In this document: positions 3,127 through 21,337 of the stretch, in pieces | Numbering within the stretch: position 1 is the stretch's first letter | Layout: every line of letters begins with the position of its first letter | IMG/VR virus record: IMGVR_UViG_3300046018_000060 | Span: 1 to 28,049 of that record | Direction: 5' to 3' (one strand) | DNA: 28,049 nt | Origin: a virus | The notes under the pieces: model-generated | Databases searched by the model: none | What the model saw: only the letters and a program-made list of their open reading frames with translations | Told to the model about the DNA's origin: nothing | Made by a program: the position numbers and the translations under genes

Positions 3127-3510
3127 GTGCCAGCTACCGAGCTGATCGCAGAACCCCCGCGCCTCACACGTGCGGAGTTCAAGAGCGAGTACCAAGCCGG
3201 GCTGCAAGACCTGGCCGCCGCGGTCAGCAACCGGTACGCTGAAGCCATCCTCACCACAGAGGATCTGCCCGAGCTGCGAAGGGCGATGGAGTTCCTGCGC
3301 GACACGCTAGCCTTGGGTGAAGAGAAGAAAGTCGACCCAAATGCGGGCCTGCCGACGTTCAACATCGTGATCAACGGGGGTAGCGTGCAGATGACCCCCG
3401 CGCTGCAAAACGCCGAAGAGGTGCCACACGCTCTCGAGTTCACCCCGACCGCTGCCATGATGGCCAACCTGGGTGTCAACGCCGATCTGGATGAGGCGCA
3501 TCCGTGCTGA
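3127..3510 (+). CDS. Putative terminase small subunit
   Basis: A 127-aa protein starting at a GTG just after the stop of the Lys-rich gene; the nearby ATG at 3122 gives only six codons. Ribosome binding is weak (AAGAAG). The N-terminal 65 residues look helical (LTRAEFKSEYQAGLQDLAAAV, LPELRRAMEFLRDTLAL), and the C-terminus is extended (TFNIVINGGSVQM). It overlaps the large terminase gene by seven bases. Position and size fit TerS, which recognises the packaging site and recruits TerL, but I see no diagnostic sequence motif, so the call rests on context. Confidence 0.5.
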   Translation: MPATELIAEPPRLTRAEFKSEYQAGLQDLAAAVSNRYAEAILTTEDLPELRRAMEFLRDTLALGEEKKVDPNAGLPTFNIVINGGSVQMTPALQNAEEVPHALEFTPTAAMMANLGVNADLDEAHPC

Positions 3511-4978: not shown

Positions 4979-7120
4979 ATGCAGCTCGGCTTGGCCCCAC
5001 CCCGCACAGCGACCGCACCCCCGATGACCAGTCCGGGGCCGAGCTTTTCCATTGGTGGGCTTATGCAGGCCAAGCCGCTCAAGACGCTGCTGGGCGAGGA
5101 GAAGATGGCCGCGCAGGCGCGCGCGATGGAGGCGAACAACCAGGGGGTCATTCAGGGCCTGGCCGCGCAGATCCGTCGTCACTGGGTGGCCAACAAGCAG
5201 CTGCGCCTGCCGTTCGAGCTGGAGATGCTGGCAGCTCTGCGTGCCAAAAGGGGCGAGTACGACCCGGAAAAGCTCGCGAAGATCAGGAAGCACCACGGCT
5301 CCGAGATTTACATGATGCTGTTCGCCACAAAGGCGCGGCAGTTCAAGGCGCTTATCGGCGACGTGTTGATGGGCACGGGCCAGGACAAGCCGTGGACGCT
5401 GAAGACCACCCCGGTGCCCGAGCTGCCACAGAACGTGCAGGCAGAGATCATGCAAGGTGCAGCCCAGCTGGTGATGCAGGCCGAGCAGTCCGGGGCCCCG
5501 ATGAGTCTAGACGAGGTGCGGCAGATGCTGCGCGACGCGAAGGACCACGCAGAAGCGTCCCTGATGGGTGAGGCGAACGCGCGGTGCGACCGTGCGGAGA
5601 AGAAAGTCGAGGACATGCTCGTCGAGGGGAAGTGGCTCGAGGCCCTGTACGACTTCATCGACGACCTGGCGGTGTTCAAGAGCGCGTTCATCAAGGGGCC
5701 GGTTGTCAGGAAGACGCCCGTGCTGAAGTGGGAGCCCCAGCCCGACGGTACGTTCGAGCCCACCGCGACGTTCGAGAACAAGCCCCAGTGGCACCGGGTC
5801 GACCCGCTGATGCTGTACCCGTCGGAGGACAACAAGACCGGCCACGAAGGAAACCTGATCGAGCGGCACCGGCTGTCTCGGGGCGCCCTGTACGACATGA
5901 TCGGTCTGGAGGGGTACTCGGAGGACGCGATACGCCAGGTGCTCGAGGAGTACGGCACGGGCGGGTTGCACGAGTGGCTGCAGATCGACACCGAGCGCGC
6001 GCAGGTCGAGAGTGGAACGACGTTCCGACAGAACGATGACTTGATTGACGCGCTGCAGTATTGGGGTCGCGCCAGCGGGAAGATGCTGATCGAGTGGGGG
6101 ATGACGCCGGAGGAGGTGCCAGATGAGGGCAAGGAGTACGACGTTGAGGCTTGGCTGATCGGGAACTGGGTCATCAAGGCCGGGATCAACAACGACCCGC
6201 TCGCCCGCCGCCCGTACTACAAGGACTCGTTCGAGAGCGTGCCCGGTGCGTTCTGGGGCACGTCGGTGTACGACAGCATGCGGGATTGCGAGGGGATGTG
6301 CCAGGCCGCGGCTCGCGCGCTCGCGAACAACCTCGGGATTGCCTCGGGCCCACAGGTCTGGGTCAACAACGATCGCCTGCCGACAAACGAAGAGATCACG
6401 GAGATGTTCCCGTGGAAGATCTGGCAGACCCAGAGCGACCCGATGGGTGGCAGTGCGGCCCCGATCGGTTTTTTCCAGCCCTCGAGCAACGCGGCCGAGC
6501 TGATGGGGGTGTACGAGAAGTTCAGCGCACTGGCCGATGAGTACACGGGCATCCCGAAGTACATGACTGGCGTGTCTGGCTCGGAGGGTGGGGCAGGGCG
6601 CACGGCCTCGGGCATGTCGATGATGATCACAAACGCCGGGAAGACGATCAAGAAGGTGATTGCGAGCTTGGACTTCAACATCATCGAGCCTTCGGTCGAC
6701 GGGGCGTTCATGTTCGTCATGCGCTACATTCCGGACCCGGACATCAAGGGCGACCTCCAGGTGCACGCGCGCGGCGCCACCAGCCTGATCGTGAAGGACA
6801 CCGCAGCGGTGCGTCGCAACGAGTTCCTGCAGCTGACCGAAAACCCGATCGACATGCAGATCATGGGCGTGGAGGGCCGGGCAAACATCCTGCGGGCGCA
6901 GTCGAAGGCGCTGGACATGGACGCGGAGATCATCCCGTCGACCACCCAGATCCGGCAGCAGCAGTTCATGGCCGCGCAGCAGGCCCAGCAGGCAGCGATG
7001 GCAGGTATCCCGCCCGGTCAGCCGGGCGCGCAGGAGAGTGGGAAGCCGATGGGCACGAACAAGCAGCTCATGGACGGCGCGCCGGTAACCCAGAACGTCG
7101 GGCCCCGGAGAAGTGCATGA
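4979..7120 (+). CDS. Portal protein
   Basis: A 713-aa head-tail portal, the dodecameric ring at one capsid vertex through which DNA enters and leaves. The start ATG at 4979 follows GGAGA at good spacing. Length and composition fit large podoviral (P22-like) portals. Features are a basic N-terminal helical region, the segment ALYDFIDDLAVFKSAFIKGPVVRKTPVLKW near 225-255, RVDPLMLYPSEDN near 275-290, and a Gln/Ala-rich C-terminal helix (QIRQQQFMAAQQAQQAAMAG, about 655-680) like the barrel of long portals. It follows TerL and overlaps the peptidase gene by an ATGA quartet. Confidence 0.9.
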   Translation: MQLGLAPPRTATAPPMTSPGPSFSIGGLMQAKPLKTLLGEEKMAAQARAMEANNQGVIQGLAAQIRRHWVANKQLRLPFELEMLAALRAKRGEYDPEKLAKIRKHHGSEIYMMLFATKARQFKALIGDVLMGTGQDKPWTLKTTPVPELPQNVQAEIMQGAAQLVMQAEQSGAPMSLDEVRQMLRDAKDHAEASLMGEANARCDRAEKKVEDMLVEGKWLEALYDFIDDLAVFKSAFIKGPVVRKTPVLKWEPQPDGTFEPTATFENKPQWHRVDPLMLYPSEDNKTGHEGNLIERHRLSRGALYDMIGLEGYSEDAIRQVLEEYGTGGLHEWLQIDTERAQVESGTTFRQNDDLIDALQYWGRASGKMLIEWGMTPEEVPDEGKEYDVEAWLIGNWVIKAGINNDPLARRPYYKDSFESVPGAFWGTSVYDSMRDCEGMCQAAARALANNLGIASGPQVWVNNDRLPTNEEITEMFPWKIWQTQSDPMGGSAAPIGFFQPSSNAAELMGVYEKFSALADEYTGIPKYMTGVSGSEGGAGRTASGMSMMITNAGKTIKKVIASLDFNIIEPSVDGAFMFVMRYIPDPDIKGDLQVHARGATSLIVKDTAAVRRNEFLQLTENPIDMQIMGVEGRANILRAQSKALDMDAEIIPSTTQIRQQQFMAAQQAQQAAMAGIPPGQPGAQESGKPMGTNKQLMDGAPVTQNVGPRRSA

Positions 7121-7536: not shown

Positions 7537-7749
7537 GTGAACCAGCAACAGTCACTGCAGCTCTTCGAGCGCCTTGTGCAAAACGAGCCGCAGCTCAAGG
7601 TATGGCTACAGGAACAGCTGGATCGACAGATTGACGTGCTTGTCCTGCAAAACGATGAGGCGCAGCTGCGAAAGGCCCAAGGCCACGCACATTGCCTGCG
7701 AACCCTCGTCGGTCAGCTCGACGACGCCAGAACGCGCTTGACGCGCTGA
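7537..7749 (+). CDS. Small hypothetical protein upstream of scaffold
   Basis: A 70-aa, Gln/Leu-rich helical protein (MNQQQSLQLFERLVQNEPQLK...), probably a coiled coil. The start is a GTG at 7537; there is no Shine-Dalgarno sequence because the preceding bases are the palindromic promoter, so translation may be leaderless. No membrane segment and no enzyme motif. Small helical proteins between portal and scaffold are common in podoviruses; I cannot assign a function. An alternative is a later start at an internal GTG (about 7576). Confidence 0.6.
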   Translation: MNQQQSLQLFERLVQNEPQLKVWLQEQLDRQIDVLVLQNDEAQLRKAQGHAHCLRTLVGQLDDARTRLTR

Positions 7750-7754
7750 AGATC

Positions 7755-7772
7755 ACCCCCCGAAAGGGGGAT
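7755..7772 (+). other. GAAA-tetraloop hairpin between small gene and scaffold
   Basis: CCCCC (7757-7761) pairs with GGGGG (7766-7770) around a GAAA tetraloop. It is followed by ATTTCAACC, not a T-run, so it is unlikely to terminate. It lies 40 bases upstream of the scaffold start and could stabilise or process the mRNA. Confidence 0.45.
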
Positions 7773-7809
7773 TTCAACCCTGAGAGCCAGAAGGCACAGG
7801 AGACAGTAG

Positions 7810-8733
7810 ATGGCATTGCCAAAACAGATTCAGCGACAGCTCGACGCCGCCGAGGCCTTGTACAACCAAGCGCCCGCCTCAGAGCAAAGCGTTGAATCGC
7901 CAGAACCGCAGCCCGAGCCGATCGAGGCCGCGCCCGCAGCACCTGCAGCCCCACCAGCCCCTGCACCGACCCCAGCCCCGTCGCCAGACGAGACTTCCTG
8001 GGAGCACCGGTACAAGACGCTGCAAGGCATGTTTGCCCGTCAGGGCCAGGACATGAAGCAGCTGTCCGCCAAGGTCGAGGAACTGACCCGAGCACAGCAG
8101 CCCAAGCCAGCGGAGCCGCCGAAGTACGAGCCGGACGCGAAAGACGTTGAGGTTTTTGGGACTGACCTTGTCCAGATGGTTCAGCGCGTCGGGGAGCAGA
8201 TGCTCGGAGGCGTGGTCAAGAGCCTGGATGAGAGGTTGAAGATCATCGAGAGCAATTTGCAAGGCACGGCAAAGACCGTTGCGCTGACAGCGGAGGATTC
8301 GTTCTACGCCAAGTTGGCCACCGCGGTGCCGGACTGGGAAGCGCTGAACCAGAACCAGACATGTCTGGACTGGCTGGCACAGGAAGACCCCGTGTTTGGG
8401 GTTCCACGCCAGAACGCGCTCGATGTCGCGAGCCGAACGCTGAATGCTCAAGCGGCGATCAACATCTTCAAGCAGCTCAAGAGCCTCGTGGCCCCCGCTC
8501 CAGCGGCCACAGCCAAGGCGCCCGCGCCTAGCAAGTTGGACAAACAGGTGAGCCCGAACACGTCAGCAACCAATACTGCTCCGGTACAGGCCGACGCCAC
8601 GATCGTCACGCAGGCGCAAATTCAAGCGTTCTACAACGATCTGGCGAAGCGCAAGTACGCGGGACGGCAAGAAGAAGCGGACGCGATCGAGCTGCAAATC
8701 AACCGGGCCCTAGCCGAAGGACGAGTCAGATAA
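7810..8733 (+). CDS. Scaffolding protein
   Basis: A 307-aa acidic, helical protein that would template procapsid assembly and then leave the capsid. The start ATG follows AGGAGA. It has an Ala/Pro-rich linker (about residues 38-60), then WEHRYKTLQGMFARQGQDMKQL (about 63-84), a segment very typical of podoviral scaffolds, followed by a predicted coiled coil. A second Ala/Pro-rich linker lies near 230-245, and the C-terminal helix YNDLAKRKYAGRQEEADAIE is a plausible coat-binding region. It directly precedes the major capsid gene, the usual position for a scaffold. Confidence 0.85.
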   Translation: MALPKQIQRQLDAAEALYNQAPASEQSVESPEPQPEPIEAAPAAPAAPPAPAPTPAPSPDETSWEHRYKTLQGMFARQGQDMKQLSAKVEELTRAQQPKPAEPPKYEPDAKDVEVFGTDLVQMVQRVGEQMLGGVVKSLDERLKIIESNLQGTAKTVALTAEDSFYAKLATAVPDWEALNQNQTCLDWLAQEDPVFGVPRQNALDVASRTLNAQAAINIFKQLKSLVAPAPAATAKAPAPSKLDKQVSPNTSATNTAPVQADATIVTQAQIQAFYNDLAKRKYAGRQEEADAIELQINRALAEGRVR

Positions 8734-8743
8734 GACCGTTCGT

Positions 8744-8768
8744 TGGGGCCCATGAAATTGGAGCCCCA
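8744..8768 (+). other. Hairpin presenting the capsid gene ribosome binding site
   Basis: TGGGGC (8744-8749) pairs with GCCCCA (8763-8768), leaving a 13-base loop that contains TTGGA of the ribosome binding site for the ATG at 8771. The structure could tune capsid translation. It is not followed by a T-run. Confidence 0.35.
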
Positions 8769-8770
8769 TC

Positions 8771-9778
8771 ATGGCAATTACCCGCGACACAACGGCCGTC
8801 TACCCAGTAGCGTCACCGTTTAACACCAACCCCCCGTACTCGGGCAACTTCATCCCGACCGTCTGGTCGGCGAAGCTGAACGCCAAGTTCTACAAGGCGT
8901 CGATCTACGGCGAGATCGCCAACACCAACTGGGAAGGCGACATCTCGGGAACCGGCGACAAGGTGGTTATCAACACCGCCCCGACGCTGACCATCAGCAA
9001 GTACACGGCCGGTACGGCTCTGACGTACCAAGTTCCGACGCCGAACGCGCAGGAACTCAACATCGACAAGGGCCGCTACTTCGCGTTCCAGATCAACGAT
9101 GTGCTCGAGTACCAGGCCAAGCCGAACCTGATGGACATGTTCGCGACGGACGCCGCAGAGCAGATGCGCATCGCCATCGACTCGGAAGTCATCTACAACA
9201 CGATCTTCAACACGGTCGCAGCCAACAAGGGCGCCACCGCGGGTGTCAACTCGTCTGGTTACAACATGGGCACGGACGCCGCTCCGGTGGTCCTGTCGGC
9301 TTCGAACGTGCTGCAGAAGATCCTCGAGATGGCCTCGATCCTTGACGAGCAGAACGTCCCGTCGGAAGACCGCTACCTGCTGATCGACCCGCTGACCCGT
9401 GCGCTGTTGATGCAGTCGAACCTGGCCCAAGCGCAATTCATGGGCGACGACAAGTCCACCGTGCGCAACGGCAAGATCGGCATGATCGACCGCTTCACGG
9501 TCTACGTGACCAACCAGCTGCCGGTCGCCCCCGCTGGTACCGCGACTCCTTGGGTCTCTGGTGACGGCTCGGAAAACTCGGTGACCTCCACCGGTACCGT
9601 GCTCAAGCGCCGGGCGATCTTTGCCGGTCACAAGTCGGCCATCACCTTCGCTTCGCAGATCACGAAGATGGAGACGGTGCGCAACACGACCGACTTCGGC
9701 GACTACATCCGGTCGCTCAAGGTCTACGGCTTCAAGATGATCAAGACGGACGCTTCGGCTCTCCTGGTCGCCGCATAA
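8771..9778 (+). CDS. Major capsid protein
   Basis: A 335-aa coat protein forming the icosahedral shell. The assignment rests on position right after the scaffold, on length, and on sequence features of podoviral HK97-fold coat proteins: ANTNWEGDISGTGDKVVI near residues 51-68, LNIDKGRYFAFQINDV near 98-113, and a helix MFATDAAEQMRIAIDSEVI near 122-141. It is strongly biased to C-ending codons, as expected for high expression, and is followed by a terminator. No protease-processed N-terminal extension is evident. Confidence 0.9.
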   Translation: MAITRDTTAVYPVASPFNTNPPYSGNFIPTVWSAKLNAKFYKASIYGEIANTNWEGDISGTGDKVVINTAPTLTISKYTAGTALTYQVPTPNAQELNIDKGRYFAFQINDVLEYQAKPNLMDMFATDAAEQMRIAIDSEVIYNTIFNTVAANKGATAGVNSSGYNMGTDAAPVVLSASNVLQKILEMASILDEQNVPSEDRYLLIDPLTRALLMQSNLAQAQFMGDDKSTVRNGKIGMIDRFTVYVTNQLPVAPAGTATPWVSGDGSENSVTSTGTVLKRRAIFAGHKSAITFASQITKMETVRNTTDFGDYIRSLKVYGFKMIKTDASALLVAA

Positions 9779-9781
9779 GCA

Positions 9782-9804
9782 CTAACCTGTTAGTGTGATA
9801 CCAT
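9782..9804 (+). promoter_or_regulatory. Palindromic promoter nested in the capsid terminator
   Basis: CTAACCTGTTAG (9782-9793) is followed after five bases by TACCAT (9799-9804), extended by TG at 9796. It lies four bases after the capsid stop codon. A transcript starting about 7 bases downstream would begin inside or after the first arm of the terminator hairpin at 9805-9831. Promoter activity is inferred. Confidence 0.5.
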
Positions 9805-9837
9805 GCCCCGGTCCTTGAAAAAGGTCGGGGCATTTTT
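9805..9837 (+). terminator. Rho-independent terminator after the major capsid gene
   Basis: GCCCCG (9805-9810) pairs with CGGGGC (9826-9831) and, after a small asymmetric bulge, CCTT (9813-9816) pairs with AAGG (9820-9823) around a short A-rich loop. The stem is followed by ATTTTT (9832-9837). It lies 26 bases past the capsid stop and only nine bases before the next start codon. Confidence 0.8.
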
Positions 9838-9846
9838 CTGGAACCG

Positions 9847-10521
9847 ATGACGCCACTCGACGCCTTCTTTTCACGCCTGACACCGATGGTGATCGGCTGC
9901 TCCCAGCCCGCAATGGAACAGGCGCTGGTGGATGCCTGCATCGAGTTTTGCGAAGAGACCCGGATCGTCAACCGCACAAGCGGCCAGCTCGACTGCAAGG
10001 CAGGCGTAACGGATTACCCCCTTGATCTTCCACGCGAGAGCACGACAGTCGCGCTGCTCGAAGTGTTCTACGGCTCGCGAGAGCTTGAGCTGATAGAGCC
10101 AGACGAGTTCGTCATGCCGCTCGAAATCTTTTCCTCTGACGGTGTGAATACCGCGCCGACAGGCGACCCCCGTCGCGCCGCCCTGTTGGACCCCGATGTC
10201 ATACGGGTGTTTCCTGTACCGGACAAGACCGAAGCCAAGAAATTCACCGTGCGCGCGGCGACCAAGCCGAAGCGCAACGCGACGCAGGTTGAGAACATCC
10301 TGTTCCAGAACTGGGCCGAGCCCATCACTGCGGGCGCTGCCGCGCGCCTGCACGCAACGCCCAACCAGCCGTACACCTCGCTGGCCGACGAGCAGCGCGC
10401 TCGGGCCCTGTTCCAGAAAGGCATCAACCGCGCCTCAGTCGAAGCCATTCGGGGCCGGGTGAAAGGTTCCCAGTCGATACAGATGCGCCCGTTCCATGTC
10501 GGAGGCCATAGATGGCTGTGA
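9847..10521 (+). CDS. Head-tail connector / adaptor protein
   Basis: A 224-aa protein starting MTPLDAFFSRLTPMV. The segment VIGCSQPAMEQALVDACIEFCEETRI (about residues 15-40) is typical of podoviral adaptor proteins that attach below the portal: an N-terminal helix with alternating Ala/Cys and acidic residues. The middle is β-rich (DYPLDLPRESTTVALLEVFYGSRELELIEPDEF). The start at 9847 has only a weak TGGAA upstream. Position between coat protein and the second connector supports the role. It overlaps the next gene by ten bases. Confidence 0.7.
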   Translation: MTPLDAFFSRLTPMVIGCSQPAMEQALVDACIEFCEETRIVNRTSGQLDCKAGVTDYPLDLPRESTTVALLEVFYGSRELELIEPDEFVMPLEIFSSDGVNTAPTGDPRRAALLDPDVIRVFPVPDKTEAKKFTVRAATKPKRNATQVENILFQNWAEPITAGAAARLHATPNQPYTSLADEQRARALFQKGINRASVEAIRGRVKGSQSIQMRPFHVGGHRWL

Positions 10522-11168
10522 CCGCGGCATCGATCGTTAAGTCTGCGCAGGAGATCCTGAGCGACTTGGCGGGCGTTCGTTGGCCTGCTGGCGAGCTGGT
10601 GCGGTACCTGAACGAAGCGCAGGGGGAGATTGCCCGCGTCCGGCCCGACCAGAAAACGATTACCCGCAATGAGGCGTTGATCGCTGGAGCTGGCCAGACC
10701 ATCCCTGCCGATGCGCAGGCGCTGATCGACATTCAAGGCAACGCTGCTGGCCGGAAACGGGCCATCCGCAAGATAGATCAGATCCAGCTCGAAGCCGTTC
10801 AGCGTGACTGGCAGAGCCGCGCGCCCGGCCCCGAGATCCTGCACTACATGCACGACATCCGCGATCCACGGACGTTCTACGTGTACCCACCCGCCTCCGA
10901 AGGTCAGCTGGTCAACGTCGTGCTTTCCTTGTATCCGGCTGACGTGCCAGACCCTGTAGGAAGCAACACGTACAACGGCGTCGCCGGTTCGATCGACCTG
11001 CCGGACCACTGGAAGACCTCGATCCTGAACTACATGCTGTACCGCGCGTACGCCAAGGACGCTGAGTACGGCGGGAACGCCCAGATGGCAGCGCAGTACC
11101 TCGCGCTTTTTGACAAAGACACAGGCGCCCAGCTCGCGTCCACGGCCGCAGTGGCCCCGAAGACCTAA
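10512..11168 (+). CDS. Head-tail connector protein, DUF6682-like
   Basis: A 218-aa protein with an N-terminal helical region, AASIVKSAQEILSDLAGVRWPAGELVRYLNEAQGEIARVRP (about residues 5-45), that matches phage connector/tail adaptor proteins (I believe DUF6682, from memory). This is followed by IPADAQALIDIQG and a C-terminal HWKTSILNYMLYRAYAKDAEYG near 175-195, both usual for the family. The start at 10512 is fixed by GGAGG at 10501. It lies directly after the first connector gene, so the two probably form successive rings under the portal. Confidence 0.7.
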   Translation: MAVTAASIVKSAQEILSDLAGVRWPAGELVRYLNEAQGEIARVRPDQKTITRNEALIAGAGQTIPADAQALIDIQGNAAGRKRAIRKIDQIQLEAVQRDWQSRAPGPEILHYMHDIRDPRTFYVYPPASEGQLVNVVLSLYPADVPDPVGSNTYNGVAGSIDLPDHWKTSILNYMLYRAYAKDAEYGGNAQMAAQYLALFDKDTGAQLASTAAVAPKT

Positions 11169-11186
11169 CGCCTACGGAGATACACG

Positions 11187-12068
11187 ATGCCCACTGTTTT
11201 TCCTGGCGCGCTTGATGTCCTGGTGAACCCCACACCAGGCGACAGCCTGAGCACACCTGCCGTCCTGCACAGCTCGCAGCACGCGAACATCAACGACGCC
11301 GTCGAGGCCATTCAAGCACTTATCGGCGTCACCGGCTCCACGGTAACCGGAACACTTATCAAACGTTTGGCGGATGCGGAAGCAAACATTTCCAGCTTGC
11401 AGGCTGTAGTCGCGACCCTTGGGGGCGGCACGAATCCCGGCACGACGCCACAAGCCCCTATCCAATTGACCGCCCCGGCTTTTGCCAGCACGACCGCGCT
11501 TGTCGGCGAAACGATCACAGTCACGCTTGGAACCTACATCGGCAATCCAACGCCGACGGTCACTCGAGTCTGGCGCAAGGACAGCATCATTCTCGCGGGC
11601 GTCACCGGCACGTCGTACACGACGACTGCGGCGGGAACGTACACGGTTGACGAGACGGCAAGCAATGGCGTCGGATCTCCGATCACCCGCAGCACAGTGG
11701 TCGGCGTCACTGTCACGCCTATCCCGGTAATACCGAGCATCCCGCAGGGGTTCTCCGCAGGCACAGCCAGCGACGTTGCTCAGGTTTTGAACTGGGTGGC
11801 CCCGGTAACTGGTTACCCAGCAACGTACACCTACACGATCACCCGTCGCACAGGCGGCGCAGCCTACGGCAATGCGGTCACGACGGCTGCAGGCGCAACG
11901 ACGGTAACGATCACTGGTTTAACGGCATCGACTGCCTACGACTACCTGATCACAGCCACCAACACGACGGGCACTGGTACGGCGGCGTCGATCACCAATC
12001 TTTCGACCACGGCCGCCCCAGGCGGCAGCAGCGTCTACGCAGACAACTACGCAGACAACTACGCATAA
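11187..12068 (+). CDS. Virion protein with Ig-like and fibronectin type III domains
   Basis: A 293-aa modular protein. Residues 25-80 contain LHSSQHANINDAVEAIQALIG, a motif common at the N-terminus of phage fibre proteins, followed by a predicted coiled coil. Residues about 93-177 form an Ig-like domain (GNPTPTVTRVWRKDSIILAGVTG), and 186-275 a fibronectin type III domain ending in TITGLTASTAYDYLITATN. The C-terminus is a short repeat, YADNYADNYA, encoded by a 12-base direct repeat. Such domains often decorate virions and bind weakly to carbohydrates. The start follows CGGAG. It leads the block containing DUF1800 and DUF1501. Confidence 0.8.
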   Translation: MPTVFPGALDVLVNPTPGDSLSTPAVLHSSQHANINDAVEAIQALIGVTGSTVTGTLIKRLADAEANISSLQAVVATLGGGTNPGTTPQAPIQLTAPAFASTTALVGETITVTLGTYIGNPTPTVTRVWRKDSIILAGVTGTSYTTTAAGTYTVDETASNGVGSPITRSTVVGVTVTPIPVIPSIPQGFSAGTASDVAQVLNWVAPVTGYPATYTYTITRRTGGAAYGNAVTTAAGATTVTITGLTASTAYDYLITATNTTGTGTAASITNLSTTAAPGGSSVYADNYADNYA

Positions 12069-12080
12069 GGACTGAACATC

Positions 12081-12470
12081 ATGACTTACACCAAACGAGT
12101 CGGCGCTGCTGGCAACCTCACTGCAGCACAAGTCGATGCCAACTTTGAAAACGTGTCCCGAGGATTGGGCCTTGACCCAGTCACGATCACGGCCACGGGC
12201 AATTTGACCGATACCGCGCACGCGGGTCGCGAGTTGTTCGTCAACAGCGCAACCGCAGTCACGCTGACCATCCGCACGCAAGCCAACGGTGGGCCTGCAA
12301 CGCCGGGAACGCGGATCTACGGCACCAACCTTAACGTGGGCGCGATCACGCTGGCGGCCGAGTCTGGATCAGCCCTTACTGGGGACTCGGCGCTGCCTTC
12401 CACCATCGCCCAGTACGGCGTGTTTGACGTGATCGTCACTGCCGCCAATGCGTACCTGCGGAGGGCATAA
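12081..12470 (+). CDS. Fibre-like virion protein
   Basis: A 129-aa protein. The N-terminus YTKRVGAAGNLTAAQVDANFENV is typical of phage fibre proteins (a Leu-Thr-Ala-x-x-V-x-x-Asn-Phe motif). The rest is β-rich (ITATGNLTDTAHAGRELFVNSATAVTLTI) and resembles in pattern the protein encoded at 16190 (NLTAADNGQTLETTGAVTLTV), suggesting a shared β-sandwich used as a capsid or fibre decoration. GGACTG precedes the start. It sits between the Ig/FN3 protein and DUF1800. No enzyme motif is visible. Confidence 0.65.
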   Translation: MTYTKRVGAAGNLTAAQVDANFENVSRGLGLDPVTITATGNLTDTAHAGRELFVNSATAVTLTIRTQANGGPATPGTRIYGTNLNVGAITLAAESGSALTGDSALPSTIAQYGVFDVIVTAANAYLRRA

Positions 12471-14252
12471 ATGAGCACCATTCTCGCGGGCGCGGTTCGC
12501 AGGAAAACCGCCGCTGCGCTGACGGTCGCAGAGGCCGCGCGCCTGATCCGTCAAGCAACGCTTGGTATCCGTTCGTATACCGAGTTGACCGACATCCAGA
12601 CGGCAGGAACGCGCCGTGAGCAGTGGATCGACGCCCAACTCGCGATCGCCTATCCAGCGTGCATCACAACGACCAAGGCAGACGGTGTAACGCCGTTCGT
12701 TGAGACGCTGCGCAACATGGGGAGCCCCCAGTACGGAACGGCAAAAGCAACTGTTGGTTGGGGCAGCTATCAGGACGGGCGCAGGCTTGCCCAGACTCAC
12801 CGGATGCTCAACCACCCAGACCGCCTGCGGGTGAAGGTTGTTCGCTGCCTGACCGAGTATTTCTCCGTCGGTGACACCGCGGATGGTAGCAGCGCAGATG
12901 GAGGTACTTACATCGCAGACATTCTCTCTGAGCGTGCTTTCGGCACTTTCAAGGATCTGCTGCTAACAGTTACCCGCACATTGGAAATGGGCAACTGGTT
13001 GACGTTCGTCAACAACAAGAAAGCCTCGGGGATTCAGTCGCCCGACGAAAACTACGCACGGGAGATCATGCAGCTCTACACCATCGGGCTGTGGGAACTC
13101 AACCTCGACGGCACGCGCAAGAGGTATCAGGATCTCCCGACAGGGGACTCGCGTTTTCTTGCTGCAGGAACTGCAGGATCAACTGCTGAAGTACCGACAT
13201 ACGGTCAAGATGACATCCGGCAACTGGCGCGGGTGTTTACGGGTATTGGTTCGACATTCCCAAGTGAAGTAATTGGGTTTGATAAAAATATTGACTATAC
13301 TCCCGCTATAGGGTTTCATGAGTTTGGCGCAAAGACTGCTCTCTACGGCACGCAAACTCCGTGGATCAACGTACCCGCCAGCGCCACGACGACAGTTGCT
13401 GTTGCGGATGCGGAACTTGACTATGTGATCGGGAGACTTGTCAGTCACGCATCGTGCGCGCCATTCTTCTGCAAGCGCATGATCGAAATGATGGTGACGA
13501 GCAACCCATCGGCCGGGTATGTAGCCCGAGTGGCAAGCGTTTTTGTGAACGACGGAACAGGCCAGATAGGAAACCTTGCGGCGGTCTTCAAGGCAATCCT
13601 GATGGATCAGGATGCTCGGGCGCCTGCAAGCAAAGGCTTGATTGGTCGCGTATCCCATTTGTACGACATCGGGCAACAGTTGGCGCAAGTCTGCCCGGGA
13701 ACAACTGACACAAGCGGAAACTTGAACTGGCGCCTTGCCAATTTCACTTCGTATCAGTGGCGAAGGGTTCCGCTGTGGTCAAGCGAAACCTACGATAACG
13801 AACCAGTAAAGCAAAAATTCGGTATCCGCAGCATGCGTTCTGTGTTTGGGCGAATACCCGCTCGCTTCAGCCCAGTCGGACCTCTGCAAACTGCAGGTTT
13901 GTCGTCTCCTGAATCGTTCCTGCTGGATGAGTATGGGGCAACGCTTCTGCACAACATGGATGATGGCGGCGCCAAGCGCATTCGTCCGTCAGAGTTGGCC
14001 TACGGGACGGGAGAATGGTCGACCCTCACATCAGGGCTTTCAGCGTCCAACGGCCCGCTTGCAACCCTCATTGACAAATACTGTGTGTTGTTCACTGGTG
14101 ATACCGCTCCGCAGACATTCAAAGACAGCCTGCGGACTATCTACAGCAACGCGACAAACTACCCAATTGCAACAGACCAGAACAAGATGGACCTGTTTAG
14201 CAGCATGGTCACGTCGATCATTGTGAGCCCCTACGGGATGGTACGGACATGA
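12471..14252 (+). CDS. DUF1800 family protein encoded by the phage
   Basis: A 593-aa protein whose sequence follows the DUF1800 family throughout: AEAARLIRQATLG (20-32), QWIDAQLA (51-58), the signature SPDENYAREIMQLYTIGLWEL (190-210), DDIRQLARVFTG (247-258), HEFGAK (283-288) and HASCAPFFCKRMIEMMV (326-342). DUF1800 proteins in bacteria are usually exported and encoded next to DUF1501; their function is unknown. This copy has no signal peptide. The start follows GGAGG (12461-12465). Its end overlaps the DUF1501 start by ATGA. A patch near 13260-13320 is clearly AT-richer than its surroundings, hinting at recent transfer from a bacterium. Confidence 0.9.
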   Translation: MSTILAGAVRRKTAAALTVAEAARLIRQATLGIRSYTELTDIQTAGTRREQWIDAQLAIAYPACITTTKADGVTPFVETLRNMGSPQYGTAKATVGWGSYQDGRRLAQTHRMLNHPDRLRVKVVRCLTEYFSVGDTADGSSADGGTYIADILSERAFGTFKDLLLTVTRTLEMGNWLTFVNNKKASGIQSPDENYAREIMQLYTIGLWELNLDGTRKRYQDLPTGDSRFLAAGTAGSTAEVPTYGQDDIRQLARVFTGIGSTFPSEVIGFDKNIDYTPAIGFHEFGAKTALYGTQTPWINVPASATTTVAVADAELDYVIGRLVSHASCAPFFCKRMIEMMVTSNPSAGYVARVASVFVNDGTGQIGNLAAVFKAILMDQDARAPASKGLIGRVSHLYDIGQQLAQVCPGTTDTSGNLNWRLANFTSYQWRRVPLWSSETYDNEPVKQKFGIRSMRSVFGRIPARFSPVGPLQTAGLSSPESFLLDEYGATLLHNMDDGGAKRIRPSELAYGTGEWSTLTSGLSASNGPLATLIDKYCVLFTGDTAPQTFKDSLRTIYSNATNYPIATDQNKMDLFSSMVTSIIVSPYGMVRT

Positions 14253-15712
14253 CGCAACCCACAGAATGGCAAGCAGTTCGATCTGGTGTAACAACCGCAG
14301 CCGGCGCCACAGGCGGGGGCACGGACAAGCGCGCACTGATCGTCTTGTGGTTGAACGGGGGCATGGACCCCCACAACTTCCTGACCCCGCGAACGGGAAG
14401 TGCGAACAGGGCGATCTACGAGTCGTCCAGGCCGACCGTCAAACTTGCCGACAACGCGACCACGGTCATCAATACAAACTGGCAGTTGCACCCGGCGATG
14501 TACAACGCGACCGCGGCATCCAATTTCATGGGTATCGTGACTGCCGGAAAGGCCGCGGTCTTGATGAACGTCGGGCCGCTGACGCGACCCACGGCGCGCA
14601 ATAACTACTACAGCGGAACGCTTCCGCGCCAACTGTTCAGCCACTCAGACCAGAGCGCCGAATGGCAAACTGGAGATCCGCTGACGCCGAACCTGAAGAC
14701 CGGGTTTCTCGGTCGCTTGACCGACATGCTCCACCCATCGTTCAACGCCAGTTCGACGGTGGGCTCCCTCTACACGTTCGTAGGGAAGGGTGCATTCAGC
14801 GGAACCTACGATCAGAAAGTGTCCGCATTAGCTCCATCAGGGATTGATCTGCGTGCAAGCGGAACTGCCCTGAACATCGCAAACAAGATCGCCCTCGACC
14901 CGATCAGATACCCGGACCCGGCAACCTTGAGCCCGCTTCAGGCTCAAGTCAGTCAATCGCATTTGGATGCGGATACGTTCGTTGGCGCGGTCAAGTCTGT
15001 GCTTGATGCTGCGACCATTACGGGACCGACGTTTGTCGATGACGCAGCCAGCAACAGCACGCTTGCCGCCCTGAAGTTGATCAAGTCAATGGGCAGTCTC
15101 AACCAGCGTAGGCAAATCCACTGGATATCTCAGGGTGGGTTTGACCAGCACGACGGTTTGCTCAGTACCCTGAATGCCAATCTGGCGGGAGACGGCAACG
15201 CTGGAAGTTTCCGCAGGGGCGGGGTGGCTCGGTATATCAAGCAGGTATACGACGCAATCACCGACGCATCGTGGCCCTCTGACACCAAGGTGACCATGCT
15301 GGTGTACACAGAGTTTGGTCGCACCCTGACGCAAAACACGGACGGAACAGACCACGCATGGGGCGGGCACGCAGTTCTTGTCGGCAATGACGTACTAGGA
15401 ACATCCGGCCTGGGCGGATCATGCTTGTTCGGTGCGGAGCCTGACTTCTCCGGGTTCACAAACACGACTGCAACCTCGGGCAATTACTGGGTGCCGATCA
15501 GCCCGGGGACGACAACCACGTCGGACGCTCGCGGCTTGATGATTCCGACCACGCCGAACGACTCGCTGTACATGACCATCAGTAAGTGGATGGGTGTGCC
15601 GGACACGACGATTGCAACCTACAACCCGATGAATCTGGTTGTGCCGAACTACGTTGCAGGCGGGTTCACGGACGCCGGGGTGACCGCGCGCAACCTGGGC
15701 ATGCTGGCGTAA
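14249..15712 (+). CDS. DUF1501 family protein, alkaline phosphatase/sulfatase-like
   Basis: A 487-aa protein of the DUF1501 family, placed in the alkaline phosphatase/sulfatase superfamily. Seen motifs are IVLWLNGGMDPHN (31-43), LHPAMY (80-85), LFSHSDQSAEWQTGDP (129-144), GGFDQHDGLL (296-305), YTEFGRTLTQN (353-363) and GTDHAWGGHAVLVG (366-379). The Asp/His residues in these last three are the likely metal ligands. Bacterial members usually carry a Tat signal; this one does not, starting directly with about 25 flexible residues. It is coupled to DUF1800 by a 4-base overlap. A hydrolase acting on host surface phosphate or sulfate esters is plausible, not proven. Confidence 0.9.
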   Translation: MTQPTEWQAVRSGVTTAAGATGGGTDKRALIVLWLNGGMDPHNFLTPRTGSANRAIYESSRPTVKLADNATTVINTNWQLHPAMYNATAASNFMGIVTAGKAAVLMNVGPLTRPTARNNYYSGTLPRQLFSHSDQSAEWQTGDPLTPNLKTGFLGRLTDMLHPSFNASSTVGSLYTFVGKGAFSGTYDQKVSALAPSGIDLRASGTALNIANKIALDPIRYPDPATLSPLQAQVSQSHLDADTFVGAVKSVLDAATITGPTFVDDAASNSTLAALKLIKSMGSLNQRRQIHWISQGGFDQHDGLLSTLNANLAGDGNAGSFRRGGVARYIKQVYDAITDASWPSDTKVTMLVYTEFGRTLTQNTDGTDHAWGGHAVLVGNDVLGTSGLGGSCLFGAEPDFSGFTNTTATSGNYWVPISPGTTTTSDARGLMIPTTPNDSLYMTISKWMGVPDTTIATYNPMNLVVPNYVAGGFTDAGVTARNLGMLA

Positions 15713-15715
15713 CCA

Positions 15716-16132
15716 ATGTCGTACAACACCGGCAACTACAACGGGAGCGACGGGACGGGAACGTACAACACGTTCGCGACGGGCGCGACCCCCTACATCA
15801 CCGGCCGGGCAAACTACTACATGCGCGTACCTGAACTGACATCGAGCGGCCTACTCGGCGTATTTGACCAGCAGCCCAACGAGGTGCTGGACTACGACAT
15901 TGATTTCACCGACTGGGCCATCGTGCGCAACGACCGCCCGAACTCGGTCACGGTCACGGCAGAAACCGGGCTGGTCGTTCTCGGGTACACGTTCGTCGGG
16001 AATACCGTGCGCGTGGTTTTGGGCGGTGGCGTCACCGGCGGTGCGTACAAGGTCACCGTGCGCCTGAGTACCGACAGCGTGCCCGCCGTCATCAAGGAAG
16101 TCGACTTCCTTGTTCGCGTGAAAGAGATTTGA
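15716..16132 (+). CDS. Phage fibre protein
   Basis: A 138-aa protein starting three bases after the DUF1501 stop. The Tyr/Asn/Gly-rich N-terminus (MSYNTGNYNGSDGTGTYNTF) is low complexity. The core EVLDYDIDFTDWAIVRNDRPNSVTVTAETGLVVLG (from residue 56) is the conserved part of a small β-sandwich found in many podoviral and siphoviral fibre proteins; the Y-D-I-D-F-x-x-W motif is characteristic. It probably forms a decoration or fibre of the virion. A perfect 20-bp palindrome lies in its last codons. Confidence 0.7.
   Translation: MSYNTGNYNGSDGTGTYNTFATGATPYITGRANYYMRVPELTSSGLLGVFDQQPNEVLDYDIDFTDWAIVRNDRPNSVTVTAETGLVVLGYTFVGNTVRVVLGGGVTGGAYKVTVRLSTDSVPAVIKEVDFLVRVKEI
16093..16112. repeat. Perfect 20-bp palindrome at the end of the fibre gene
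   Basis: CAAGGAAGTCGACTTCCTTG is a perfect palindrome; as RNA it could form an 8-bp stem with a TCGA loop. It lies inside the last codons of the 15716-16132 gene and 24 bases before the next module-border palindrome. It is followed by only two T residues, so it is at best a weak terminator or a processing/stability element. Confidence 0.6.
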
Positions 16133-16189: not shown

Positions 16190-16561
16190 ATGACCGCCGC
16201 AACCACCACCGCTTTGATCAACGCAGGGCTGTCCATCGGCGCCGCCAACCTGGTCGATTCGCGCATCCCCGAGTCGTCTTTCGCGCCCCCGGTTACTGTG
16301 GCTTCCAGCCGCAACTTGACCGCTGCCGACAACGGCCAAACGCTCGAGACCACAGGTGCGGTCACCCTGACGGTTCCGGTCGGCTTGGGCCAGCCATTCA
16401 ATTGCCGCGTGACCCTCGGCGGCGCGCTCTCGGTGGCCTCGGACGGCACGGCGCTTCTGAACGGCGCCACGACCACGCTGACCCGCGCGCTGGCCACCAA
16501 CCCGTTCATCGAGATCCACGGCCGCCTGACCGCCAATTCGTACGCTGTCAACGGCGCTTGA
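16190..16561 (+). CDS. Virion decoration-like β-protein
   Basis: A 123-aa protein starting after TAGGAGA. The N-terminus (MTAATTTALINAGLSIGAANLV) is helical. The rest is a β-sandwich pattern, SSRNLTAADNGQTLETTGAVTLTVPVGLGQPFNCRVTL, widespread in phage fibre and capsid decoration proteins. It resembles the product of 12081-12470 in this pattern. It is the first gene of a new palindrome-bounded unit and may be highly expressed judging by its C-ending codon use. No catalytic motif. Confidence 0.65.
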   Translation: MTAATTTALINAGLSIGAANLVDSRIPESSFAPPVTVASSRNLTAADNGQTLETTGAVTLTVPVGLGQPFNCRVTLGGALSVASDGTALLNGATTTLTRALATNPFIEIHGRLTANSYAVNGA

Positions 16562-17360: not shown

Positions 17361-18191
17361 GTGGCTACTTTCGCCCGTCAGCCCCAGTATGTTGGGCCGC
17401 TCGACTGGAGTTCTCCGCTGGCCGTTGGGTTGGCTGATGTCCTCATACCTTCGGAGTTCCGAACAAGAGTCAACAGCGAAGCGGCCTCATCCTTAAATGC
17501 TGGGTTTTCAAATGGCGCTGGCGCTGCGGGCTCGGCGCGCTTGGTAACTTCGGAAACCGCAAACCAAAGAGACATATACAGCGGCGCTTGGTCAAGGGCT
17601 TCGTTCGCTACTGGCTTGACACTGCTGAGTGTTTATCGGCTGACATTTATCCCAGGCGCGAACGCGCGCATCGCGGGAAACTTCCTTGGCGGCGTGGTAT
17701 CGGCGAACGGGTATGCGCATGCACCAAGTACCACCAATTTCCGAGGGATTCTGGGGGCCACGACAACATCCCTCGTGCTCACTGGGACTGCTATCAGCAC
17801 CGCACTCAAGGTTGATGTCCTTGAGGTCAACAGCGCAACTGCCAGCCTTTGGGAAAACGGGGTAAGGACTGTGGCGCCCACAGCGGCTACCACCGCTGTT
17901 ACTGCAACCGGGACATTCGGAATCGGCAGTGACAACGATTTGGTGGGCGTTGCAGCAAGGTCTGAGCAGTTCCTGCATATTTTGTGGAGGCGCTCGCTCT
18001 CCAGCGCCGAGATTGCATCGATATCCGCGAACCCGTGGCAGCTATTCAAGGCGCCCAACAAAAGAGTTCTGTTCTTCGTGGCAGGAGCCGTCGGCGGTAC
18101 TAATCCCATTCGAGCCTCCAACAACATTATTCCCCTCGGGGCTTTCGTTCGAGCATCAGACAACCCCGTGCGTGTCGGTGGCATCGGCTAA
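17361..18191 (+). CDS. LamG/concanavalin A-like lectin-fold virion protein
   Basis: A 276-aa protein beginning at a GTG directly after the previous stop, with no clear ribosome binding site, so coupled translation is likely. Residues about 65-230 fit the LamG/concanavalin A-like jelly roll. Strands are LTLLSVYRLTF, the element DVLEVNSATASLWENGVRTV, and the closing signature RRSLSSAEIASISANPWQLFK (210-230), often found in phage lectin-like domains. The tail (NPIRASNNIIPLGAFVRASDNPVRVG) contains an internal repeat. Such domains bind glycans, so this may be a receptor-binding or decoration protein. Confidence 0.7.
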   Translation: MATFARQPQYVGPLDWSSPLAVGLADVLIPSEFRTRVNSEAASSLNAGFSNGAGAAGSARLVTSETANQRDIYSGAWSRASFATGLTLLSVYRLTFIPGANARIAGNFLGGVVSANGYAHAPSTTNFRGILGATTTSLVLTGTAISTALKVDVLEVNSATASLWENGVRTVAPTAATTAVTATGTFGIGSDNDLVGVAARSEQFLHILWRRSLSSAEIASISANPWQLFKAPNKRVLFFVAGAVGGTNPIRASNNIIPLGAFVRASDNPVRVGGIG

Positions 18192-19332: not shown

Positions 19333-19736
19333 TGGCACTCGACCCCGTCACTGCAATCCTCGACGTTGGCAGCAAGGTCATTGACAGGCTGTGGCCAGAT
19401 CCGGCGCAGGCACTGCAAGCCAAGATCAAGTTGTTCGAGTTGCAGCAGTCGGGCGAGCTGCAAGTCATCGCTGGCCAACTCGACATCAACAAGGAAGAAG
19501 CCAAGAACGCTAACGTGTTCGTGTCTGGTTGGAGGCCCTTCATAGGGTGGACTTGTGGGTCCGCCTTGGTCTACACCTACATCCTGTACCCGCTTCTGCT
19601 GTGGGCTGCCGCCACCTGGGCGCCGCAGATCAAGCCACCTTTGCTGGTCAACGACGGAATGCTGTTCGAGCTGATGCTTGGTATGCTTGGCATGTCCGGC
19701 CTGCGCACCTTCGAGAAGGTGAAGAGCGTTGCATGA
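19332..19736 (+). CDS. Holin, gene-transfer-agent 3-TM type
   Basis: A 134-aa protein matching the GTA_holin_3TM family. The N-terminal amphipathic region (LFELQQSGELQVIAGQLDINKEEAKNANVF) is followed by the signature VSGWRPFIGWTCG (63-76). Transmembrane segments lie at about 70-95, with the last helix ELMLGMLGMSGLRTFEKV at 113-130. Such proteins form pores in the inner membrane through which the endolysin escapes. The ATG overlaps the endolysin stop (TAATG), and its own stop overlaps the next gene by ATGA. Confidence 0.85.
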   Translation: MALDPVTAILDVGSKVIDRLWPDPAQALQAKIKLFELQQSGELQVIAGQLDINKEEAKNANVFVSGWRPFIGWTCGSALVYTYILYPLLLWAAATWAPQIKPPLLVNDGMLFELMLGMLGMSGLRTFEKVKSVA

Positions 19737-21337
19737 GCGTCATCCGCATCGCAGGCTTCTACGGAGAGAACAGGGCGCTGCACCCCAAGGCGCTGCCTGA
19801 CGGCGTCGGCACGGTCAGCCTGAACCAGTACCCAGGTCGCTCGGACTTCCGCCCGATCCAAGCCCCCCTGACAGTCGCGACCGCCGCGGGTGCCGGGTAC
19901 CAGACCATCTACCGGATGGGGCGCGACGCGCCTAGCGACACGGGCGTTTGGCTCGGCTGGAACACGATCGTCCACGCGGTGCGCGGTTTCATCTCGGCGG
20001 ACACGACTGAGCGCACGTACTACACAGGCGACGGCGTGCCGAAGTGGACGGACAACCTCAAGTACCTGACCGCCCCGCGCCCGCTCGGCGTGCCATCCCC
20101 GGTCAACGCGCCCATCCTCACAGCCACTGGCGGCTCGAGCACCACGACAGAGACACGGGTCTACTGCTCCACGTTCGTCACTGAGGTGGGCGAGGAGGGC
20201 GGCCGCAGCCCGATCAGCGCCCCGATCACTTGCAAGATCGACGACACGGTCACCCTGTCGAACCTCGACGACTTCCCTGCGGGCAACTACGGGACCACCC
20301 GGCGTCGCCGGATCTACCGATCGCAGCAGTCGACCTCGGGTGCGGGCAGCTTCCTGTTCGTCAAGGAAATATCGGCCAGCCTCACCACGACGACCGATGC
20401 GGTAGCTGCAGCATCACTGGGTGAGCCTATCGCGTCGCTGACCTGGCTGCCGCCCCCTGCGGACCTGAAGTACCTGACGGGCATGTGGAACGGCATGATG
20501 GCCGGGATCACCGGCCGCTCGGTTCGCTTCTGTGAGGCGTTCCTGCCATACGCCTGGCCGACCACGTACGAGATCATCCCCACCGATGCCACTCCCGTGG
20601 CGCTGGCGACGTTCGGGCAGAACCTGCTCATCCTCACCACCAACCGTCCCCGGATCGTCACTGGTGGCACTCCTGACGCGCTGGACGACCAGCCGATCGA
20701 ATTCAAGCAAGCGTGTGTGGCAGCGCGCAGCGTGGTGAGTCTGGGTCATGGTGTGGTCTACGCGAGCCCGGACGGGCTGGCCTACGTTGGCGGGTCGGGC
20801 GTAAAGATGCTGACCGACGGAGTCATGCTGCGTGAGGACTGGCAGGCGCTTGGCCCCACCACGATCATTGGCACCCAGTACGAGGGCCGGTACGTCGGGT
20901 TCTACCTGAAGAACGGGGTCTACCAAGGCTTTTCGATCGACCCGCGCAACCCGCAGGGGATGTTCTTCTACGATTTCGGCTACCCGGTCACCTACCTCGA
21001 TGACATCAACGATGCGATGTATGTGCTCGACGGCACGGCAATCAAGAAGTGGAACGCGGGCGCGGTAACCACTGCAAAGTTCCGCAGCAAGGTCTTCCGC
21101 ATGCCCAAGCCGATCGTGGGCTTTGCGTGCGCAGAGGTGGTGGCGGATCAGTATCCGTTTTTGTTCACGCTGTTCACGGACGACTTCCGTCGATTCGATT
21201 GGACGGTTTTTTCACGTGCTGCGTTCCGCCTTCCGAGCGGCTACTACGCCAGTGACTTTCAGGTCGAGCTGGTGACTCCATACGCGGTGCAGGGCGTGGT
21301 GCTTGCTAACTCAATGCAAGAGCTAGCGCAGGCATGA
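19733..21337 (+). CDS. Podoviral tail / virion structural protein
   Basis: A 534-aa protein; the start at 19733 (MSVIRIAGFYGENRAL) was chosen because it overlaps the holin stop by ATGA, whereas the open frame extends 204 bases upstream into the holin gene. It is β-rich throughout, with GGSSTTTETRVYCSTFVTEVGEEGGRSP (a fibronectin-like strand pair, about 130-160), RRIYRSQ, and repeats such as GVVYASPDGLAYVG resembling β-propeller blades. The C-terminus ends VELVTPYAVQGVVLANSMQELAQ, a phrase I associate with podoviral tail proteins. It probably belongs to the tail hub that supports the fibre encoded next. Confidence 0.65.
   Translation: MSVIRIAGFYGENRALHPKALPDGVGTVSLNQYPGRSDFRPIQAPLTVATAAGAGYQTIYRMGRDAPSDTGVWLGWNTIVHAVRGFISADTTERTYYTGDGVPKWTDNLKYLTAPRPLGVPSPVNAPILTATGGSSTTTETRVYCSTFVTEVGEEGGRSPISAPITCKIDDTVTLSNLDDFPAGNYGTTRRRRIYRSQQSTSGAGSFLFVKEISASLTTTTDAVAAASLGEPIASLTWLPPPADLKYLTGMWNGMMAGITGRSVRFCEAFLPYAWPTTYEIIPTDATPVALATFGQNLLILTTNRPRIVTGGTPDALDDQPIEFKQACVAARSVVSLGHGVVYASPDGLAYVGGSGVKMLTDGVMLREDWQALGPTTIIGTQYEGRYVGFYLKNGVYQGFSIDPRNPQGMFFYDFGYPVTYLDDINDAMYVLDGTAIKKWNAGAVTTAKFRSKVFRMPKPIVGFACAEVVADQYPFLFTLFTDDFRRFDWTVFSRAAFRLPSGYYASDFQVELVTPYAVQGVVLANSMQELAQA

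Follow-up and report, generated by a model that had tools for sequence, protein, structure and literature searches.

A DUF1800-DUF1501 gene pair in the tail-fiber slot of an SU10/GP4-like podovirus: evidence for a putative mobile receptor-region module

Results

The DUF1800-DUF1501 locus and its surroundings

The DNA analyzed here, an entire IMG/VR record of 28,049 bp (hereafter, the window), is a fragment of an SU10/GP4-like podovirus in which a phage-type DUF1800 protein and a phage-type DUF1501 protein are encoded by overlapping genes (Table 1). Both families had been proposed in a first-pass annotation made from the DNA letters, and the Pfam profile search that it called for returned them in these two genes, DUF1800 with 169.9 bits (gathering cut-off, 26.1) over residues 24-386, and DUF1501 with 59 bits (cut-off, 27) over residues 28-389. 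The ATGA overlap that it described is also present and couples the two genes. A GGAGG Shine-Dalgarno sequence lies just 5' of the ATG at position 12471, so this start of the DUF1800 gene is credible. As claimed, neither protein has a signal peptide ahead of its domain, the N-termini being MSTILAGAVRRK in DUF1800 and MTQPTEWQAVRSG in DUF1501, the latter with neither an RRxF-type start nor a Tat signal.

Pfam and PHROG profile searches revealed podoviral surroundings, with a structural block on both sides of the pair, as the annotation had stated; the portal displays 36% identity to that of Rhizobium phage RHph_TM3_14A. From the Ig/FN3, fiber and lectin-like neighbors originally described, the FN3 domain was recovered, while the lectin-like assignment, a weak one, concerned an ORF (17361-18191) for which no Pfam or PHROG HMM match was obtained. 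Directly upstream of DUF1800 lies a gene for a small protein with a fiber-like beta domain by eye, whose homologues (34-44% identity in the alignment) adjoin DUF1800 in the same position in four other phages; therefore, the module probably includes this protein as a third member.

Table 1. Features of the window and homologues of the small upstream gene in other viral records.
Feature	Position	Strand	Evidence
TerL	3504-4940		phrog_2 1.7e-17
Portal	4979..7120	+	PF23899 (SU10_portal) 2e-8; phrog_332 7.3e-55
Scaffold-like protein	between portal and major head protein		
Major head protein	8771..9778	+	phrog_267 5.8e-55
Two SU10-type adaptor (connector) genes	9847..11168	+	PF24175, phrog_437, phrog_399
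FN3-domain virion-type protein, 5' of module	11187..12068	+	PF00041 6.9e-6; phrog_4971 major tail protein 5.6e-5
Small protein, 129 aa	12081..12470	+	phmmer homologues directly 5' of DUF1800
DUF1800 protein, phage type, 593 aa	12471..14252	+	PF08811 E 1.4e-49
ATGA start/stop overlap, 4 nt	14249..14252	+	read directly
DUF1501 protein, phage type, 487 aa	14249..15712	+	PF07394 E 6.2e-16
Gp77-like fiber-tail adaptor, immediately 3' of DUF1501	15716..16132	+	PF23148 3e-13
Several small virion-like ORFs	between Gp77 and internal virion protein		
Internal virion (ejection) protein	19529..21337	+	phrog_511 4.4e-129
Further virion proteins	after internal virion protein		
Small-protein homologue	L088 8858-9241		phmmer 3.8e-29
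Small-protein homologue	L100 4105-4620		phmmer 4.9e-16
Small-protein homologue	L096 7840-8196		phmmer 2.4e-11
Small-protein homologue	L095 7872-8240		phmmer 1.1e-9

Occurrence of the pair in other viral records

Relatives were reached with profile-derived patterns from alignments that included bacterial homologues from plasmids; scanning viral contigs with the single sequences P0001 and P0002, like a tblastn search against INPHARED phages, returned nothing, and scans with phage-only alignments yielded no extra contigs. This survey, which had been suggested as a check, recovered one or both genes in 18 further IMG/VR records, some of them fragments with a single gene at the contig end; carriers are rare, with about 18 among 2.9 million contigs for the sensitivity used. 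The only INPHARED match, obtained with other queries, was an unannotated 6.9-kb 'Bacteriophage sp.' fragment. The sole clear match in BFVD, a library of viral structures, (E 5.6e-16) was UniProt A0A6J5M742, automatically labeled 'DUF1501 domain-containing protein' of an uncultured Caudovirales phage, for which no description of the pair, its position or its function was found. The 'DUF1501' of Pseudomonas phage ZC03 is not a true relative, being a weak CDD match to a 61-aa protein (PMC5418858).

Viral copies adjoin TerL, portal, head or tail genes, and in the records showing both genes DUF1800 always comes first and DUF1501 follows on the same strand, the two overlapping slightly or being separated by a short gap. 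Several carriers are podovirus-like: L089, with TerL and portal homologous to those of the window; L093, with TerL; L094/L108, with an adaptor and the internal virion protein; and L096, with both adaptors, the internal virion protein, and a gene order around the module that is that of the window. L095 is of the siphovirus type (TerL phrog_979, portal phrog_113, head protein phrog_29, a tail terminator and a neck protein), L090 carries TerL phrog_38, portal phrog_15554 and head phrog_1328, and L100 the head protein phrog_371. L088 is located in a 322-kb contig with a TerL, where collagen-like tail fibers adjoin the pair; RecA-, tail-tube- and sheath-like ORFs were recognized by eye, and this contig is probably a T4-like jumbo phage.

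The pair occupies a tail-fiber slot

In the window, the pair lies between the adaptors and the Gp77/ejection genes. Among 50 MCP relatives of the window, none of which carries DUF1800 or DUF1501, the interval between adaptor and ejection protein contains Peptidase_S74 fibers in L024 and L033, and DUF7483 proteins in L039 and L053; in several cases these contents also flank a Gp77 homologue. The window pair thus occupies the tail-fiber slot. A physical link with a tail protein is seen in a relative, L089, rather than in the window: its DUF1501 continues within a single ORF for 637 residues, 384 of which match phrog_5939 'tail protein' (1.8e-17). The DUF1501 of L091 has a homologous extension, ended by the contig end. 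Furthermore, the DUF1800 of L104 has cadherin/Big_9/DUF4082 domains at its N-terminus, and beta inserts were observed by eye in the phage copies L088, L094 and L098.

A phage lineage exchanged between unrelated phages

In the DUF1800 tree (102 rows), 11 viral proteins, including that of the window, formed one group devoid of bacteria (SH-aLRT 96), and in the DUF1501 tree (96 rows) 10 viral proteins grouped together with one bacterial row, L135 (SH-aLRT 99), an all-viral clade not being rejected (p-AU 0.50). The bacterial set comprised the best 80 of 575 loci; among pattern-matching genomes, it is therefore unlikely that closer bacterial relatives were overlooked. Both trees were congruent in their shared rows, recovering the window with L088, L095 with L096, and L089 with L091 and L090. 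That all viral copies strictly derive from one origin is contradicted by L101, L103, L105, L094 and L110, which fall outside the phage clade, some on long branches; thus, acquisition was not single.

A misassembly joining bacterial chromosomal DNA to a phage contig might be suspected from the dip in GC at 13-14 kb of the window. This explanation is extremely improbable and was rejected, since L096, which comes from another metagenome, repeats the gene order, and since the copies form phage clades; together with the 18 other viral records, these clades also contradict the bacterial chromosomal insertion that the first-pass annotation had considered.

L095 (GC 42%, siphovirus-type) and L096 (GC 65%, podovirus) display 69% identity in DUF1501 and 56% in DUF1800, and have in common only the small upstream gene, DUF1800 and DUF1501. 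The same three genes are all that the window has in common with L095, and with the 322-kb phage in the parts compared. Conversely, L092 and L100 have several structural proteins in common (one at 73%), whereas their DUF1800s are just 27% identical and belong to different branches. By analogy, this pattern of exchange is the behavior of host-recognition cassettes.

Bacterial homologues and the loss of export signals

The phage pair has the families, gene order, tight spacing and invariant residues of the bacterial DUF1800-DUF1501 operon (PF08811-PF07394). In line with the claim that these families are typically adjacent in bacteria, DUF1501 lies next to DUF1800 in 77 of 80 bacterial DUF1800 loci, and an RRx[FLV] Tat motif is found at the N-terminus of 76 of 80 bacterial DUF1501s (in both cases, the best 80 of 575). 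Both the twin-arginine motif and the operon linkage have been noted (PMC5122149). The two families, PF07394 and PF08811, also occur in a Caulobacter laboratory strain. The phage-clade proteins differ from the bacterial ones in standing among tail genes as their own clade, and in their N-termini: none of the phage-clade DUF1501s has a Tat motif, their start being M-x-x-P-x-[FYW], and the phage-clade DUF1800s lack the lipoprotein-like signals with which the aligned plasmid-borne DUF1800s begin, those of five phages having a short VRRK-type start. A virion part that is assembled in the cytoplasm requires no export signal. Among the neighbors on either side of bacterial pairs, carbohydrate-binding proteins with F5/8 type C (16/67) or PA14 (5/67) domains were found, an association suggestive of extracellular glycans, even if such domains are in part general to surface proteins.

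The export signals bear on whether the pair could instead constitute accessory genes (morons or auxiliary metabolic genes) whose products are made in the infected cell but left out of the particle. The GC3 of the pair (0.62 and 0.72) is lower than the 0.70-0.88 of most structural genes, as expected of a later, perhaps recent, acquisition, and the 322-kb phage has a second DUF1800-DUF1501 pair with Sec and Tat signals, which fits an action from within the host. However, the phage clade has lost the very signals needed for periplasmic work, the pair is found in the fiber block of unrelated phages, and in L089 DUF1501 is directly fused to a tail protein, making an accessory role rather improbable.

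Conserved site and predicted folds

The two motifs that the annotation had reported as kept in DUF1501, GGFDQHD and TDHAWGGH, correspond to residues 296-302 and 367-374. In an alignment of 68 sequences, with all 13 viral rows among them, H132, D299, H301, R358, N363, D368 and H369 are invariant, and E355 is Asp or Glu across the aligned sequences. D40, the presumed first metal ligand, is near-invariant, being Cys in two viral rows (L095/L096) and Asp in the window; the candidate nucleophile, S131, is kept in the window and lacks conservation in 4 of the 13 viral rows. The AlphaFold2 model of DUF1501 (pLDDT 86, pTM 0.90) gave as best PDB folds in Foldseek EptA, ICR/MCR, carrageenan and choline sulfatases, and other enzymes of the alkaline-phosphatase superfamily, with modest similarity (best E 1.5e-3, probability up to 0.96, TM-score about 0.4 by target, identity 8-11%); the DUF1501 sequence had no match in the PDB, and a search for sequence relatives with a solved structure found none. 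Phosphatases and sulfatases belong to the alkaline-phosphatase superfamily, as do LPS phosphoethanolamine transferases, and the ligands of this superfamily are arranged successively as Asp, nucleophile, Asp-x(n)-His, Asp-His. The conserved residues of DUF1501 (D40, S131/H132, D299xH301, D368-H369) follow this order, and the protein is predicted to fold as a divergent member of the superfamily, distinguished by its pairing with DUF1800.

In DUF1800, residues N182, D192, N194, R197, E198 and Q201 are invariant in 72 sequences including the window; the window protein has the PDENYARE-x-MQL core, of which the DENYARE motif is invariant. Its model is predicted to be all-helical (pLDDT 81, pTM 0.89), and a comparison with PDB folds gave no match above noise.

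An alternative reading of the DUF1501 site is that of a virion adhesin, namely an enzyme fold turned into a receptor-recognition scaffold with little or no catalysis. The Cys at D40 in L095/L096, the variability of S131, the beta inserts, and the fusions to a tail protein (L089) and to cadherin/Ig domains (L104) would agree with this. On the other hand, D40 and S131 are both kept in the window copy, and the invariance of the other seven residues despite great divergence is hard to explain without catalysis; we regard an adhesin as unlikely.

A purely assembly-related role, as a chaperone or structural filler (e.g., a fiber hinge) unrelated to the host surface, could account for the position of the window pair beside the adaptor and Gp77 genes, and for a DUF1800 devoid of a known catalytic fold. 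Nevertheless, close MCP relatives assemble without the pair, a metal-type site is conserved, and exchange between siphovirus- and podovirus-type phages with divergence in one slot is typical of host-recognition genes; such a role is improbable.

Discussion

Our results favor, at a probability of roughly 0.57, a reading in which the pair and the small upstream gene constitute a mobile receptor-region module encoding a tail-associated surface enzyme used at adsorption. Recruitment of the pair as a virion-associated surface enzyme had been put forward in the first-pass annotation; its phage-borne nature, the lost signals, the fiber slot and the L089 fusion support much of that proposal, and from them we infer the remainder with graded confidence. 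On the basis of gene context, association of the pair with the virion is highly probable, catalysis by the window copy is likely, and a phosphate, sulfate or phosphoethanolamine chemistry is slightly favored. The assignment of a substrate is indirect. Between the phosphatase/sulfatase and depolymerase activities formerly suggested, the predicted DUF1501 fold agrees with the former, as the removal or transfer of a phosphate- or sulfate-type group fits the model better than a glycan-backbone hydrolase, which the fold does not suggest.

According to the mechanism we propose, both proteins, which lack export signals, would be synthesized at a late stage in the phage cytoplasm and mounted on the tail or fiber apparatus. 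DUF1501 would belong to the alkaline-phosphatase superfamily and depend on metal for its activity, and DUF1800, whose role as partner we infer, would be its obligate helical companion, acting as a scaffold or supplying part of the active site. During adsorption, an envelope or capsule glycan would be modified by this complex, which would thereby expose or recognize the receptor; removal or transfer of a group of the phosphate, phosphoethanolamine or sulfate type is the most likely modification. The complete scheme, in which a two-component DUF1800-DUF1501 tail enzyme edits phosphate- or sulfate-type glycan decorations at adsorption and its cassette is exchanged among podo-, sipho- and jumbo phages, is put forward tentatively, at somewhat less than even odds.

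Several known systems resemble parts of this module. The portal, adaptors and Gp77 of the window are those of phage SU10/GP4-like podoviruses, with the difference that none of the 50 MCP relatives searched has either DUF. The slot is that of tailspike and tail-fiber cassettes for receptor binding and depolymerization (e.g., the S74 endosialidase-chaperone fibers, as in L024/L033), which are likewise exchanged between unrelated phages; however, these are homotrimeric spikes, whereas the window encodes a two-protein metalloenzyme-like unit in which no beta-helix or S74 domain match was found. By analogy, the module may function as a tail-fiber enzyme cassette does, though built from a new pair of proteins. 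The alkaline-phosphatase superfamily (EptA/MCR, sulfatases) provides the closest folds and a similar Asp/His order to the predicted site. The suggestion that this is a previously undescribed phage module agrees with our searches: no isolated phage described as carrying the pair was found, and the literature, in the portions of text available, contained neither a description of the pair in phages nor a paper joining DUF1501, DUF1800 and 'phage'.

Among known phage tail enzymes, glycan-backbone hydrolases, lyases and esterases predominate. If true, an alkaline-phosphatase-type metalloenzyme pair in the receptor slot would represent a new chemistry for host recognition, and would provide the first functional handle on DUF1800 and DUF1501, two widespread bacterial families without assigned function. 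As these are paired across many bacterial phyla, the signal-less phage version may constitute a simple system for purification of the complex and the search for its substrate.

Insertions, substitutions and flanking proteins

At three viral loci (L088, L094 and L098), the enzyme domains of the DUF1800/DUF1501 ORFs contain large, beta-rich inserts of the type 'HGLTTGDxVY...TFT'; by eye, these are similar to insertions in phage structural proteins, and they gave no HMM match. In the DUF1501 of two further viral loci, L095 and L096, the presumed first metal ligand, D40 of the window protein, is replaced by Cys (motif GGSCxHN), and this substitution suggests an altered metal or chemistry. In the window, two small proteins located on either side of the pair and the Gp77-like fibre-tail adaptor resemble each other in their C-terminal halves, which are of beta type (identity in the alignment, 27%), and possibly have a fibre domain in common. 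The ORF at 17361-18191 shares the low GC3 of the pair, with a value of 0.60; its product gave no HMM match, and its C-terminal end appears lectin-like by eye.

Coordinates of the features described in the window and at other loci
Sequence	Coordinates	Feature
Window	12081-12470	Small protein
Window	16190-16561	Small protein
Window	17361-18191	ORF with end lectin-like by eye
L092	393-3730	Viral locus
L095	10001-11299	DUF1501
L096	9932-11239	DUF1501
L101 (G051)	7683-11242	DUF1800-DUF1501 pair
L088 (G051)	9245-14384	DUF1800-DUF1501 pair
L135	5863-8912	Chromosomal pair

Genomic contexts of the pair

The phage carrying L092 and that carrying L100/L201 have structural genes in common, including a major head protein with 73% identity, and despite this their DUF1800s are very unlike, a pattern that resembles a module exchange. 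G051, a 322,512-bp contig of a probable T4-like jumbo phage, harbors two pairs: that at L088 is phage-type, with signals absent and tail fibres alongside, and that at L101 is bacterial-type, with Sec and Tat signals and adjoining glycan-related ORFs. The infected host may export the L101 pair. A chromosomal pair was also identified in Aquariibacter albus (L135), with no obvious prophage around the locus; its DUF1501 lacks the Tat motif and is placed within the phage clade. Finally, both families are listed among the 'orphans' in a table that gives the contents of type VI secretion clusters for X. oryzae pv. oryzicola CFBP7342 (PMC6653060), and this listing possibly hints that DUF1800-DUF1501 could be a delivered effector.
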